Positions 15,706 to 61,582 of a stretch of DNA of 64,000 nucleotides are shown piece after piece (positions within the stretch are counted from its first letter, which is position 1; each line of letters starts with the position of its first letter). A program made the translations under genes and the position numbers. Below the pieces are notes generated by a model. It had not been told where the DNA came from. It made no database searches and saw only the letters and a program-made list of their open reading frames with translations. This stretch comes from Pseudomonas cavernicola (GTDB taxonomy: Bacteria; Pseudomonadota; Gammaproteobacteria; Pseudomonadales; Pseudomonadaceae): positions 698,501-762,500 of the forward strand of contig NZ_QYUR01000002.1 of the NCBI RefSeq assembly GCF_003596405.1, written 5' to 3'.

Positions 15706-15987
15706 CCTAAAAACGACGCCGCAAAGCCTCTAGTTGGCGGGCAGCCAGCAGCGAGGAGAGCGCCGGGCGCGAGACCTGGACACCCGACAGCGGCAGGGCT
15801 TGAGCACTTTCGTAGCACTTTAGAATTATAGCAAGCCGAGGCCTGGGCTAAGTGTCACCCCAAGCGCAATCGGTCCGTGTTCTGCGTACCGTTCAGTACG
15901 TGTTCAGGAGGGAAGCACCGCGCCAAAAGATGGCGCAGCGCGGCGAGCATGAGCGAAAAGCGTGCACGTTTTATGCGCTCTCCGCCT
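15706..15987. other. Intergenic stretch with no gene recognised
   Basis: Between the gbdR upstream region and the repeat at 15988 I see no credible reading frame, RNA gene or repeat. The frame at 15877-16062 runs into the repeat and lacks coding character. Confidence 0.6.
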
Positions 15988-16132
15988 CAGAGCCTGTTCA
16001 CGATCTCGCGAGCTAAGGTCAGGCAAGGCGAAATCGGGCGAAAAAGCGCAGTTTACACGTAGTAAATGAGCATTTTGAGCCCGATTTCAACGCCGCATGG
16101 CCGACGCGCAGCAGATCATGAACAGGTTCTCA
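15988..16132 (-). repeat. Stop-codon-anchored repeat family B, copy 1
   Basis: A 145-bp repeat. Read on the minus strand it begins TGAGAACCTGTTCA, where TGA is the sdaB stop codon (16132-16130), and ends with GTGAACAGGCTCTG. It contains the shared blocks GGCTCAAAATGCTCATTTAC and CGCCTTGCCTGACC. Copies 2 and 3 are at 54636-54844 and 59443-59587, each placed the same way relative to a gene. Confidence 0.85.
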
Positions 16133-17506
16133 GCACTCGATGGCGCTGACGGCCAAACCGCCGCGCGAGGTTTCCTTGTACTTGTCGTGCATGTCGGCGC
16201 CGGTGTCGCGCATGGTGCGGATCACCCGGTCGAGCGAGATGAAGTGTTCGCCGTCGCCACGCAGGGCCATCTGCGCCGCGTTGATCGCCTTCACCGCCGC
16301 TATCGCGTTGCGCTCGATGCACGGCACCTGCACCAGCCCGCCGACCGGGTCGCAGGTCAGCCCGAGGTTGTGCTCCAGGCCGATCTCGGCGGCGTTCTCC
16401 AGCTGTCCCGGCGTGGCACCGAGGATTTCTGCCAGGCCGGCGGCGGCCATCGCGCAGGCCGAACCGACCTCGCCCTGGCAGCCGACTTCGGCGCCGGAGA
16501 TCGAGGCGTTTTTCTTGCAGAGGATGCCCACCGCTGCGGCGGCAAGGAAGTAATCGACCACGTCCGCCTCGCTCACCGCCGGGCTGAAGCGCACGTAATA
16601 ATGCAGCACCGCCGGAATGATCCCCGCCGCGCCGTTGGTTGGGGCCGTGACCATTCGCCCACCGGCGGCGTTTTCTTCGTTCACCGCCAGGGCGAACAGG
16701 TTGACCCATTCCATACCGCTGAGGGTCGTGCCGATCACGTTGGGCTTGCCCAGCTCTTGCAGGCTGCGGTGCAGCTTGGCGGCGCGGCGCTTGACGTTGA
16801 GCCCGCCCGGCAGCACGCCTTCATGCTTGAGGCCCTGCTCGACGCAGTCGCGCATGGCCTGCCACAGGCGCATCAGGCCTTTGCGGATTTCCTCTTCGCT
16901 GCGCCAGGCCTTTTCGTTGGCCATCATCAGTTCGGACACCCGCAGGCCATGTTCCTGGCACAGGCGCAGCAGCTCGGCGGCGCTGGAGAAGTCGTACGGC
17001 AGCTGGGTCTGGTCCTGGTCGAGCACGCCGCTGGCGGCCTGGGCGGCATCCACCACGAAACCACCGCCGACCGAGTAGTAGGTGTCGCGGTGCAGTTCGC
17101 CGGCCGCGCCTTCGACGATCAGGGTCATGGCGTTCGGGTGGTAGGGCAGGTTTTCGTCGAGCAGCAGCAGGTCGCGCGTCCAGTCGAACGGCACCTCGAA
17201 GTGGCCATCGAGCAGCAGGCACTGGCTCTCACGCAGGGCGGCGATGCGCGGGCCGATCTGCGTCGGGTCGATCGCATCCGGCCACTCGCCCATCAGCCCC
17301 ATGATCACCGCGTTGTCGCTGCCATGCCCGACCCCGGTGGCGGACAAGGAACCGTACAGGCGCACCTCAACGCGGCGTACCTGCTGCAACAGACCGCGCT
17401 CGCGCAGGCCCTGCACGAACAGCGCGGCGGCGCGCATCGGCCCGACCGTGTGCGAGCTGGAGGGGCCGATACCAATCTTGAACAGGTCGAATACGCTGAT
17501 GGCCAT
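16130..17506 (-). CDS. sdaB: L-serine ammonia-lyase
   Basis: Single-chain iron-sulfur L-serine dehydratase (458 residues) that deaminates serine to pyruvate, the last step when glycine betaine carbon is funnelled through glycine and serine. The N-terminal domain starts [20 protein letters not shown], the hallmark of the beta region; the alpha region carries the [4Fe-4S] cysteines in KKNAS..., [13 protein letters not shown] and [24 protein letters not shown] precedes the ATG at 17506. It is divergent from cbcX1, sharing the promoter region with the tandem half-sites at 17690-17716, so GbdR probably controls both. Its stop codon overlaps a dispersed repeat. Confidence 0.96.
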
Positions 17507-53951: not shown

Positions 53952-54638
53952 ATGATCGACCTTGCCACCTGGAACCTCACCATCCCTGTGGGCGTACCTG
54001 CCACCACCATCGACACCCCGCTACTGGTGGGCGGTTATCAGGACCACTACTTCAAATCCACCCCGGACACGCTGTTCTTCTGGGCGCCGGTAAACGGCAC
54101 CACCACTGCCAACGCCAGCTACCCGCGCAGCGAACTGCGCGAGACCTTCGCTGACGGCGCGCTGCGCAACTGGGCCTACCCGGCAGCCGACAACTCCCTG
54201 AGCGCGGCGCTGAGCGTCGGCCAGGTTCCATCGACCGGGAAGATCGTGATCGGCCAGATCCACGCATACGGCAGTAACAAACCGCTGCTCAAGCTGGAGT
54301 ACCAGTACAAGACCACCAGCGCCAGCGCCAACATCGTCGCCAAAGTGCGCATCACCCCGTTGGACGAGGTCGGCCAGACCATCACGGTGCTCAAGGGCAT
54401 TGCGCTGAACCAGCGCTTCACCTACGTGCTCAACCTGTCGCCGACGGGGCGCCTCAGCGTGATGATCAATAGCACCCTCTGGAGCCAACAGTTGGACTCC
54501 AGCTGGGCACCCAAGCCGCTGTACTTCAAGGCCGGCGTCTACCCCCAGGACAACACCGGCTACGAAACCGAAGCCGGCAACGCGACCTTCTACAACCTGA
54601 AGATCGACCACAAGCCGCTGCCTGTCGGCACGCCCTGA
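53952..54638 (+). CDS. Polysaccharide lyase family 7 alginate lyase
   Basis: A 228-residue single-domain PL7 lyase (jelly-roll) that cleaves alginate by beta-elimination. All three family motifs are present: RSELRE near residue 57, QIH in GKIVIGQIHAYG near 100 (Gln and His of the active site; the Ile variant is usually linked to polyguluronate preference), and YFKAGVYPQ near 196 (catalytic Tyr). No signal peptide is seen (MIDLATWNLTIPVG), so the enzyme would stay in the cytoplasm or be released in another way. It stands alone; its TGA stop is the first codon of repeat family B copy 2. Confidence 0.92.
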   Translation: MIDLATWNLTIPVGVPATTIDTPLLVGGYQDHYFKSTPDTLFFWAPVNGTTTANASYPRSELRETFADGALRNWAYPAADNSLSAALSVGQVPSTGKIVIGQIHAYGSNKPLLKLEYQYKTTSASANIVAKVRITPLDEVGQTITVLKGIALNQRFTYVLNLSPTGRLSVMINSTLWSQQLDSSWAPKPLYFKAGVYPQDNTGYETEAGNATFYNLKIDHKPLPVGTP

Positions 54639-54844
54639 GAACCTGCTCAGCATCTGCTAGGGCTTCGCGCGTGATGCTGCGTTAAAAATGGTTTCGGAAT
54701 GCTCATTTACAGCTCGTAAATTCTGCTTCCTCAGCCATTTTGACTCACTACGTTCGCCCTGCGGGCCAGCCTACGGCTGTTACTCCGCGTCGCTACGTTG
54801 CGCCTTGCCTGACCTTCGCTCGCTTAGATCCTGAACAGGTTCTA
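54636..54844 (+). repeat. Stop-codon-anchored repeat family B, copy 2
   Basis: Begins TGAGAACCTGCTCA, with TGA the lyase stop (54636-54638), and ends CTGAACAGGTTCTA. Contains GGAATGCTCATTTAC and CGCCTTGCCTGACC as in the other copies, plus about 64 extra bp (ACTCACTACGTTCGCCC... to CGCTACGTTG) making it 209 bp instead of 145. Confidence 0.85.
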
Positions 54845-54851
54845 AGAACGC

Positions 54852-54874
54852 AAAAAGCCCGCATCGCTGCGGGC
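54852..54874 (-). terminator. fba terminator
   Basis: On the minus strand GCCCGCA/TGCGGGC (54857-54863 with 54868-54874) followed by TTTTTG, 30 bp beyond the fba stop codon. Confidence 0.85.
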
Positions 54875-59442: not shown

Positions 59443-59587
59443 TCAGAACCTGTTCAAGGTCGTCGCGAGCGCAGGTCAGGCAAGGCGAAAATAGGCGAGG
59501 AAGCGGAGTTGACTGCAGTCAATGAGCATTCCGAGCCTGTTTTCAACGCAGCATCACCAAGCGCAGCAGACATTGAGCAGGTTCTCA
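59443..59587 (-). repeat. Stop-codon-anchored repeat family B, copy 3
   Basis: Read on the minus strand it begins TGAGAACCTGCTCA, with TGA the tktA stop codon (59587-59585), contains GGAATGCTCATTGACTGC and CGCCTTGCCTGACC, and ends CTTGAACAGGTTCTGA; 145 bp, same length as copy 1. Confidence 0.85.
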
Positions 59588-61582
59588 GCCTTCCAGCAGT
59601 TCGGCGGCGGTATCCAGGATGTTCTCCAGGGTGAAGCCGAAATGCTCGAACAACGCCGGTGCCGGTGCCGACTCACCGAAGGTGGTCATGCCGATCACCC
59701 GACCTTCGAGGCCGACGTACTTGTACCAGTAATCGGCATGGGCCGCTTCGATGGCGATCCGGGCACCGACTTGCAACGGCAGCACGGACTGCTTGTAGCC
59801 GGCGTCCTGGGCGTCGAACACGCTGGTGCAAGGCATGGAGACCACACGCACCTTACGGCCTTGCTCGCTGAGTTTGTCGAATGCCTGTACCGCCAGACCG
59901 ACTTCCGAGCCGGTGGCGATCAGGATCAGCTCCGGCTCGCCGGCGCAGTCCTTCAGCACGTAACCGCCACGGCTGATGCTGGCGACTTGCTGCACATCCC
60001 GCGCCTGATGCGTCAGGTTCTGCCGGGAGAAGATCAGTGCGGACGGGCCGTCGTTGCGCTCGATGGATTGTTTCCAGGCCACCGCGGACTCCACCGCATC
60101 GCAGGGACGCCAGCAGTCCAGATTCGGCGTCATGCGCAGGCTGGCCAGTTGCTCGATCGGCTGGTGGGTCGGACCGTCCTCGCCCAAGCCAATGGAGTCA
60201 TGGGTGTAGACGAACAGCACGCGCTGCTTCATCAGCGCGGCCATGCGCACGGCGTTGCAGGCGTATTCCATGAAGACCAGGAAGGTCGCGCCGTAGGGGA
60301 TGAAGCCGCCGTGGCGAGCGACGCCGTTCATGATCGCGCTCATGCCGAACTCGCGCACGCCGTAGAACATATAGTTGCCGTTGGCGTCGTCGGCGGTCAC
60401 GCCCTTGCAGCCCTTCCACAGGGTCAGGTTGGAACCGGCGAGGTCGGCCGAACCGCCGAGGAATTCCGGCAGCAGCGGGCCGAAGGCGTTAAGCGCGTTC
60501 TGGCTGGCTTTGCGGCTGGCGATGGTTTCGCCCTTGTTGGCGACGTCGGCGATATAGACCGCGGCCTTCGCAGCGAAGTCGGCCGGCAGCTCGCCCTTGA
60601 CTCGCCGGCTGAACTCGCTGGCCAGTTCCGGATAAGCGGCGGTGTATGCGGCAAAGCGCTGGTTCCATTCGACCTCGGCGGCGGCGCCAGCTTCCTTGGC
60701 ATCCCACGCGGCATAGATCTCACTCGGCACTTCGAACGGGCCGTGAGTCCAGCCGAGGGCGGCACGGGTCAGGGCGATTTCGTCGTTACCCAGTGGCGCG
60801 CCGTGGCAGTCTTCCTTGCCTTGCTTGTTCGGCGAACCGAAGCCGATCACGGTTTTGCAGCAGATCAGGGTCGGCTGCTCGCTCTTGCGTGCGGTGTCGA
60901 TGGCGATCTTGATTTCTTCCGCGTCATGCCCGTCGACGTTGCGGATCACCTGCCAGCCGTAGGCTTCGAAGCGCTTGGGCGTGTCGTCGGTGAACCAGCC
61001 ATGCACTTCACCGTCGATGGAGATGCCGTTGTCGTCGTAGAAGGCGATCAGTTTGCCCAGGCCCAGCGTGCCCGCCAGCGAGCAGACTTCATGGGAGATG
61101 CCTTCCATCATGCAGCCGTCGCCCAAGAAGACGTAGGTGTGATGGTCGACGATGTTGTGGCCATCGCGATTGAACTGCGCCGCCAGGACCTTTTCCGCCA
61201 AGGCCAAGCCCACGGCATTGGCCAGCCCCTGGCCGAGCGGGCCGGTGGTGGTCTCGACGCCGGCGGTATAGCCGAATTCCGGGTGGCCCGGGGTACGAGA
61301 GTTGAGCTGACGGAAGTTTTTCAGGTCATTGATGGTGACGTCGTAGCCGGTCAGGTGCAGCAGCGAGTATTGCAGCATCGAGCCATGGCCGTTGGACATC
61401 ACGAAGCGGTCGCGGTCGGCGAACTCCGGGTTGCTCGGGTTGTGCTTGAGGTAATCGCGCCACAACACTTCGGCGATGTCGGCCATGCCCATTGGGGCGC
61501 CGGGGTGGCCGCTGTTGGCTTTCTGCACAGCATCCATGCTGAGGGCACGAATGGCATTGGCACGCTCACGACGGCTGGGCAT
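59585..61582 (-). CDS. tktA: Transketolase
   Basis: Thiamine-diphosphate-dependent two-carbon transfer between sugar phosphates in the pentose phosphate pathway (665 residues, normal). N-terminal [37 protein letters not shown], ThDP motif [18 protein letters not shown]...DDN, and the pyrimidine domain with [19 protein letters not shown] and [20 protein letters not shown] are present. GGAG precedes the ATG at 61582. The stop codon lies in a family B repeat. Confidence 0.97.

Follow-up and report, generated by a model that had tools for sequence, protein, structure and literature searches.

Pseudomonas genomes carry REP sequences and REPINs, short palindromic intergenic repeats with a tetranucleotide foot and no target duplication. 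RUP, Correia and similar small bacterial repeats are described, in the excerpted report on them, as non-coding sequences with inverted ends for which mobilisation in trans is assumed, in the case of RUP by IS630-Spn1 (PMC2229807). MITEPsy1 of Pseudomonas syringae, 100 nt long, moves in vivo and is thought to be derived from the IS5-family element ISPsy2, as far as the available text of the report goes (PMC3189936). The IS1031 group of the IS5 family includes ISLrh, an autonomous element of 857 bp with two overlapping ORFs, for which the accessible part of the description gives a preference for TNA, a 3-bp repeat and 17-bp ends GAACCTGTCTAGTATCT (PMC12016507). No description of stop-codon placement of a bacterial MITE was found in the open-access literature searched.

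The repeats analysed here, from the genome of Pseudomonas cavernicola (5.63 Mb, 8 contigs), are miniature inverted-repeat elements with ends GARCCTGYTCANNATC, flanked by a 3-bp TNA target duplication. These duplications and the 17-bp ends set them apart from REP sequences and REPINs, which lack a duplication, and a scan for the element ends in 80 named loci matched only REP-like pairs GGAGYGAGCCTGCTCGCGA (9). They resemble RUP, Correia and similar repeats in being apparently non-coding, in their inverted ends and in their presumed movement in trans, but those have mostly TA-type ends or targets, and no stop-codon rule is described for them in the excerpted report (PMC2229807). MITEPsy1 is likewise a Pseudomonas MITE linked to the IS5 family, but it has ends GGAAGGTCTGAAAAAGCC, a 4-nt duplication CTAG or YTAA and six copies in strain 1448A, again according to the available text (PMC3189936). 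The ends of ISLrh agree with one class-A element sequence at 13 of 17 positions; in the accessible part of its description a single insertion is reported, into a TGA on a plasmid, and stop codons are not mentioned (PMC12016507). Similar to the elements is also an IS5-family insertion sequence of 846 bp on the Xanthomonas hortorum plasmid pICMP7383.2 (transposase WP_095575269.1; locus L505), with ends GAACCTGTTCAAAGTCT / GAGCCTGTTCAAAGTCT and the duplication TAA, which differs in encoding a transposase and in its host; the ORF that terminates at this duplication is 10 codons long.

Three copies lie in the window, the whole 64-kb stretch of DNA that was analysed, together with the following features:

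15987..15989, no strand: distal target duplication TCA of copy 1, same as 16130-16132
15990..16129, minus (core strand, read in the sdaB direction): element copy 1, 140 bp, ends GAACCTGTTCATGATC / GAGCCTGTTCACGATC
16130..16132, minus: target duplication of copy 1, the TGA stop of the serine dehydratase gene (ORF and Pfam)
16130..17506, minus: serine dehydratase gene (sdaB-like), PF03313 and PF03315
53952..54638, plus: alginate lyase gene, PF08787 (alginate lyase 2 domain)
54636..54638, plus: target duplication of copy 2, the TGA stop of the alginate lyase gene (ORF end)
54639..54842, plus: element copy 2, 204 bp, long form (sequence, alignment)
54742..54800, plus: insert of about 59 internal bases that marks the long form, missing from copies 1 and 3 (alignment)
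54843..54845, no strand: second target duplication of copy 2, TAA, one base off (sequence)
54857..54874, plus: terminator-like stem-loop just beyond copy 2 (consensus scan)
59443..59445, no strand: distal target duplication TCA of copy 3, same as 59585-59587
59446..59584, minus: element copy 3, 139 bp (sequence)
59585..59587, minus: target duplication of copy 3, the TGA stop of the transketolase gene (ORF end)
59585..61582, minus: transketolase gene (tktA-like), PF00456 and others

The lyase we take to be a PL7 enzyme. An earlier note, made from the letters of the window, had described these copies as a dispersed repeat, family B, and much of that description stands: all three are present, read in the direction of the gene each opens TGAGAACCTG(T/C)TCA, the inner blocks are shared, and the adjoining TGA is in all three cases the stop codon of the ORF (16130-17506 on the minus strand, 53952-54638 on the plus strand and 59585-61582 on the minus strand). 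The terminal inverted repeats are found as well, the end motif AGAACCTGNTCA lying at both ends of each copy; with at most one mismatch it has 8 matches in the window (0.61 expected), of which 6 are these ends. The note was wrong, however, in letting the repeat start with the TGA. Copies 1 and 3 are bordered on either side by the same three bases (TCA/TCA on the plus strand), and the stop codon is therefore one copy of the 3-bp TNA target duplication and lies outside the repeat; the flanks of copy 2, TGA/TAA, differ by one base. The extra length of copy 2, about 59 internal bases in the alignment of the three copies, is shared with other elements: a long form with about 58 bp added at one fixed point of the core (54742-54800; L032, L042) is found with the ends described here, in copy 2, and with ends CAGRCYGTGTGAAAAC.

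In the whole genome, the end pattern with TNA in front has 165 matches at up to two mismatches (82 forward, 83 reverse), and the reversed-pattern control gives 0 and 1. Taken together, 100 of these 165 matches and earlier loci yielded at least 62 complete elements, 41-303 bp long; two copies on contig C4, one inverted duplicate of a locus in the same genome and one element without flanking TNA were removed. The 15.6-kb contig C4, which holds two inverted copies of a stretch also present at C2:1915695 with the same element, is a duplicated or chimeric contig. TNA stands on both sides of 46 elements, with identical triplets in 36, different ones in 9 and merely reverse-complementary ones in 1, so that the triplet is a duplication and not a part of the inverted repeat. 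Without the TNA filter, a TNA adjoins at least one end of 58 of 59 distinct elements. CTNAG is the favoured target, and insertions that do not lie at stops share this preference (C before and G after: 0.68, n=11). Minimal elements of 41-65 bp, about two ends back to back, are common (C2:290645, 394011, 1762121, 2966057 and others). In some single elements (L005, L025, L271, L279) both ends deviate from the consensus in the same way, for example GAATCGGTT / AACCGATTC, as if matched to each other.

The same procedure was applied to two further, related genomes, G001 and G144, in 60 and 40 regions around end matches, a subset of the matches; elements with TNA at neither side and repeated flanks were left out of the three-genome set. 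Pooled, the triplets are identical in 85 of the 105 elements with TNA at both flanks. Lengths reach 553 bp in G001, where five elements of 500-553 bp (L317, L324, L326, L333, L366) have the same ends and related interiors, and inspection of their six reading frames revealed nothing recognisable as a transposase. An end match with at most one mismatch occurs in 109 of 199 genomes of the genus, about 30 of which have three or more, although single matches can be due to chance, as the reversed control also gives singles in some genomes. High counts are restricted to a few genomes: 126 in P. cavernicola, 97 in G144, 84 in G001, 69 in G114, 57 in G168 and 51 in G139.

The ends and the target match insertion sequences of the IS5 family of IS1031 type. 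A scan of viral contigs found a complete insertion sequence of 848 bp with ends GAACCTGTCTAAAATCT and GAATCTGTCTAAAATCT and the duplication TTA, encoding DUF4096 and DDE proteins, whose transposase led to the 846-bp insertion sequence of the Xanthomonas plasmid (ends GARCCTGTTCAAAGTCT, duplication TAA). Nine of 260 element ends are identical to those of the latter over 17 bases and all 260 lie within 6 mismatches, of which only the close or identical matches carry weight, the 260 ends being those of 130 elements preselected by a similar pattern. Complete insertion sequences of 843-873 bp with such ends, carried by plasmids or viral contigs, are flanked by TNA at either end, with identical triplets at 16 of 18 distinct sites, and three insertion sequences with transposases about 40-44% identical to that of an insertion sequence with such ends have clearly different ends. 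Mobilisation by an enzyme of IS1031 type would fit these ends and targets. In the P. cavernicola genome no parent insertion sequence with these ends was found; PF13340 has one match there, with other ends, and the resident DUF4096 insertion sequence was rejected as parent, its ends being GGGRCTGTTGACGTTTC. DUF4096 matches occur in 16 of 57 genomes, and the 30 loci examined, including that of P. cavernicola, have other ends wherever these are readable. Of 32 PF01609 places listed for six genomes, 30 yielded loci, and at none of these is a transposase convincingly enclosed by a pair of the element ends; at one PF01609 locus a 303-bp element adjoins the transposase. Phage records gave no match to copy 1. 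With no parent found there, the copies in the P. cavernicola genome may be relics of a lost one.

The inner part of the element has a wider distribution than its ends. About 106 bp common to copies 1 and 3 also occur inside elements with other transposon ends (L028, L053, L281, L282, L283, L284, L416, L417, L418). The same core is found in elements of about the same length whose ends, CAGRCYGTGTGAAAAC, are also those of two resident insertion-sequence loci, and in often CTAG-flanked elements with ends GGYTCTGTACGAAAA, like those of DUF4096-carrying insertion sequences of relatives, which we take to be of IS427 type. A copy on a Halomonas plasmid has yet another, fourth end type, and further copies are carried by Pseudomonas and Fukatsuia plasmids. 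It seems that a single core has acquired the ends of several different transposases. In an alignment of 55 distinct cores, Watson-Crick pairs fill 1496 of 1646 stem cells, and at least two different Watson-Crick forms are seen for 16 of the 30 pairs; these counts are biased in favour of the structure, which had been predicted from this very alignment. Two PF01609 loci (L312 and L313, at C6:230235 and C6:1124225) have ends CAGGCTGTGTGAAAAC, the same as small elements with this core, and 4-bp flanking repeats GGTC and GACC; an insertion sequence of this type is the likely mobiliser of those small elements.

Occupied and empty orthologous sites, the comparison that the earlier note had proposed, were examined for sdaB and tktA, and clean empty sites were found for both: the genes of relatives stop at the corresponding position and carry no element there. 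An element stands at the stop in 0 of 29 other sdaB-like loci and in 0 of 104 other transketolase loci; five of these loci have an end-like match within 200 bases. The P. cavernicola genome itself contains an sdaB paralogue, 96-97% identical, with TGA at the same place and no element, and the homology between the window gene and this paralogue ends at the element edge, one base inside the element. The two sdaB genes (C2:662194-662965 and window 16130-17506) lie about 52 kb apart on C2, with an element at one stop only. At the sdaB and tktA sites the stop codon pre-dates the insertion and was not brought by the element.

Across the three genomes, the duplication is the exact stop codon of a called gene in 73 of 130 elements (P. 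cavernicola 29/57, G001 24/36, G144 20/37), gene ends being taken from an automatic caller that scores codons after training on long ORFs; when the three genomes share a single codon table, the count is 75 instead of 73. The remaining insertions are intergenic elsewhere (50/130), 15 of these 50 sitting 2-16 bases beyond a stop, or inside called genes (7/130). These mobile-element-like repeats are placed at stops far above chance, in agreement with the earlier note, although its three of three holds for the window copies and becomes 29 of 57 for the family in this genome. The stops used are TAA (41) and TGA (32) and never TAG, which makes up 68 of 381 other stops at the same loci (P about 6e-7). 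TGA and TAA are TNA and TAG is not, so TAG is spared, which fits a TNA rule and not a general stop-codon rule. Insertion targeted to TGA stops as such, as the note had suggested, does not agree with these counts: the target is TNA, at best CTNAG, and TAA is used more often than TGA. Elements with a CTAG target were at TAG stops in 0 of 5 cases scored, a result of little weight, as the pattern missed other such elements.

The TNA target rule alone does not fully explain the stop placement. Of the TNA sites in non-coding DNA of the window, 6% are gene stops, a share that rises to 14-15% for CTNAG or weighted sites; among the insertions observed, 28 of 53 are at stops. When CTNAG sites are pooled over the three genomes, stops have 43 insertions and 68 unused sites and intergenic positions 18 and 263, an odds ratio of 9.2 that missed genes may inflate, since 13 kb of the 64-kb window remain intergenic after gene calling. 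In convergent gaps of up to 200 bp between confident genes, TNA is used at 18 of 85 stop sites and at 5 of 133 others (p=7e-5), an excess at stops of about sevenfold, and CTNAG alone, in small numbers, at 10 of 27 against 0 of 9 (p=0.04). Within the gaps of the P. cavernicola genome that were actually hit, 16.6 (all TNA equal) to 22.4 of 53 insertions are expected at stops, the upper figure resting on weights partly learned from the same sites, and 28 are seen.

The stop-located repeats are very probably MITEs spread in trans by an IS1031-type transposase of the IS5 family that cuts TNA, with an excess at stops that arises mainly from selective loss elsewhere. Such a MITE would be a miniature transposon that is non-coding and bounded by the terminal inverted repeats GARCCTGYTCANNATCT, and the transposase would move it in trans by cutting TNA, best CTNAG, the three target bases being duplicated on insertion. 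When the target is a TGA or TAA stop, this duplication would keep the in-frame stop intact and so leave the protein unchanged. The excess would then come mainly from the loss of insertions at more harmful sites and not from recognition of the stop, which is the explanation favoured here. It is supported by the near emptiness of coding sites (7/130) and by the distribution of end mismatches, copies with at least two mismatches being at stops more often (23/34) than mismatch-free copies (23/51; p=0.048). Against it stand the convergent gaps, where insertions should be harmless and TNA is nevertheless used far less than at stops, and age as judged from identity to the nearest copy, which shows little difference and no clear young/old trend (old 32/54, young 19/38 at stops; p=0.40). 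The missing parent in the P. cavernicola genome and the deviating ends of the three insertion sequences with about 40-44% identical transposases also count against this reading.

A less probable explanation is that the integration machinery itself prefers gene ends, so that CTNAG sites at stops are chosen more than equal sites, for instance because the uncoupling of transcription and translation at stops exposes DNA or an RNA-DNA hybrid. The odds ratio of 9.2, the replication of stop placement in all three genomes, the excess in short convergent gaps and the 15 of 50 intergenic insertions just past a stop would all be in line with such targeting, as would the failure to find a longer DNA motif that separates hit from spared stops. 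However, the CTNAG numbers in convergent gaps are small, part of what the automatic gene calls leave as intergenic may be missed genes, and the excess becomes much smaller when conditioned on the gaps that were hit. Mismatch-free copies are also less stop-biased than mismatched ones, and only 1 of 18 distinct sites occupied by complete insertion sequences with such ends coincides with the stop of an ORF of at least 100 codons, though these insertion sequences come from other hosts and from plasmid or viral-contig records (19 rows, 18 sites, with L495, L502, L503, L504 and three alphaproteobacterial insertion sequences left out). In addition, we know of no way for a DNA transposase to read a stop codon, which was counted against targeting. 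That DNA transposition is steered to stops, with target choice coupled to the ending of translation or transcription, is thus considered unlikely.

The earlier note had also raised selection for a function at the 3' end (termination, mRNA stability). In this reading a hairpin directly behind the stop codon would protect the mRNA or terminate it. The elements do fold strongly by prediction (z -7.10 for copy 1, -3.65 for copy 2), and many lie directly 3' of genes. The fixed orientation to the gene holds for the three window copies but not for the family: among 28 stop-located elements of P. cavernicola the core runs in the same direction as the gene in 12, in the opposite direction in 7 (p=0.36) and is unreadable in 9. 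Copies at random distance or orientation to coding ends had been named as the observation that would speak against the note, and orientation is indeed free while the distance to the coding end is not random. RNA of the gene-sense strand is the more stable of the two in only 10 of the 28, mismatches between paired ends are divided equally into 22 G.U and 22 A.C, and elements of 42-65 bp with no readable core stand at stops too (8/28). A search for intrinsic terminators (a G+C stem followed by a T run) found no terminator-like site inside copies 2 or 3; the one just beyond copy 2, in a scan giving 6 sites in the stretch scanned against 4.7 expected, places this copy between the alginate lyase stop and the terminator-like site. 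In the Rfam scan of the window nothing reached the gathering threshold, and two weaker matches, below threshold, lie around copy 1. Of 16 elements that combine the same core with ends CAGRCYGTGTGAAAAC, one directly adjoins a stop and one more is a single base off, compared with 73 of 130 (p=1e-4), although fewer stop positions would be expected there anyway because these elements have no TNA target. Nothing among these data suggests selection for an RNA hairpin; strand stability, orientation and the balance of G.U and A.C give the proposed 3'-end function no support, and we regard it as quite improbable. Chance or an artefact of ORF calling, which any TNA might invite because it always reads TAA or TGA on one strand, is extremely unlikely, given that the same caller yields the 6% and 14-15% above against 28 of 53 observed, that Pfam domains extend close to the C-terminus in all three window genes and that the sdaB and tktA stops of relatives stand at the same place without an element.

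Spread of a MITE by a TNA-cutting transposase accounts for the stop pattern without an RNA function, and its predictions, namely no use of TAG, either orientation and pre-existing stops, are borne out where tested. The residual excess at stops turns the choice between selection and targeting into a measurable question. If targeting were true, it would represent a safe-site strategy in which a target that rebuilds the stop is combined with a process mark that finds the stop. In a compact genome, a duplicated target that covers two of the three stop codons would offer a transposon a simple route to harmlessness.
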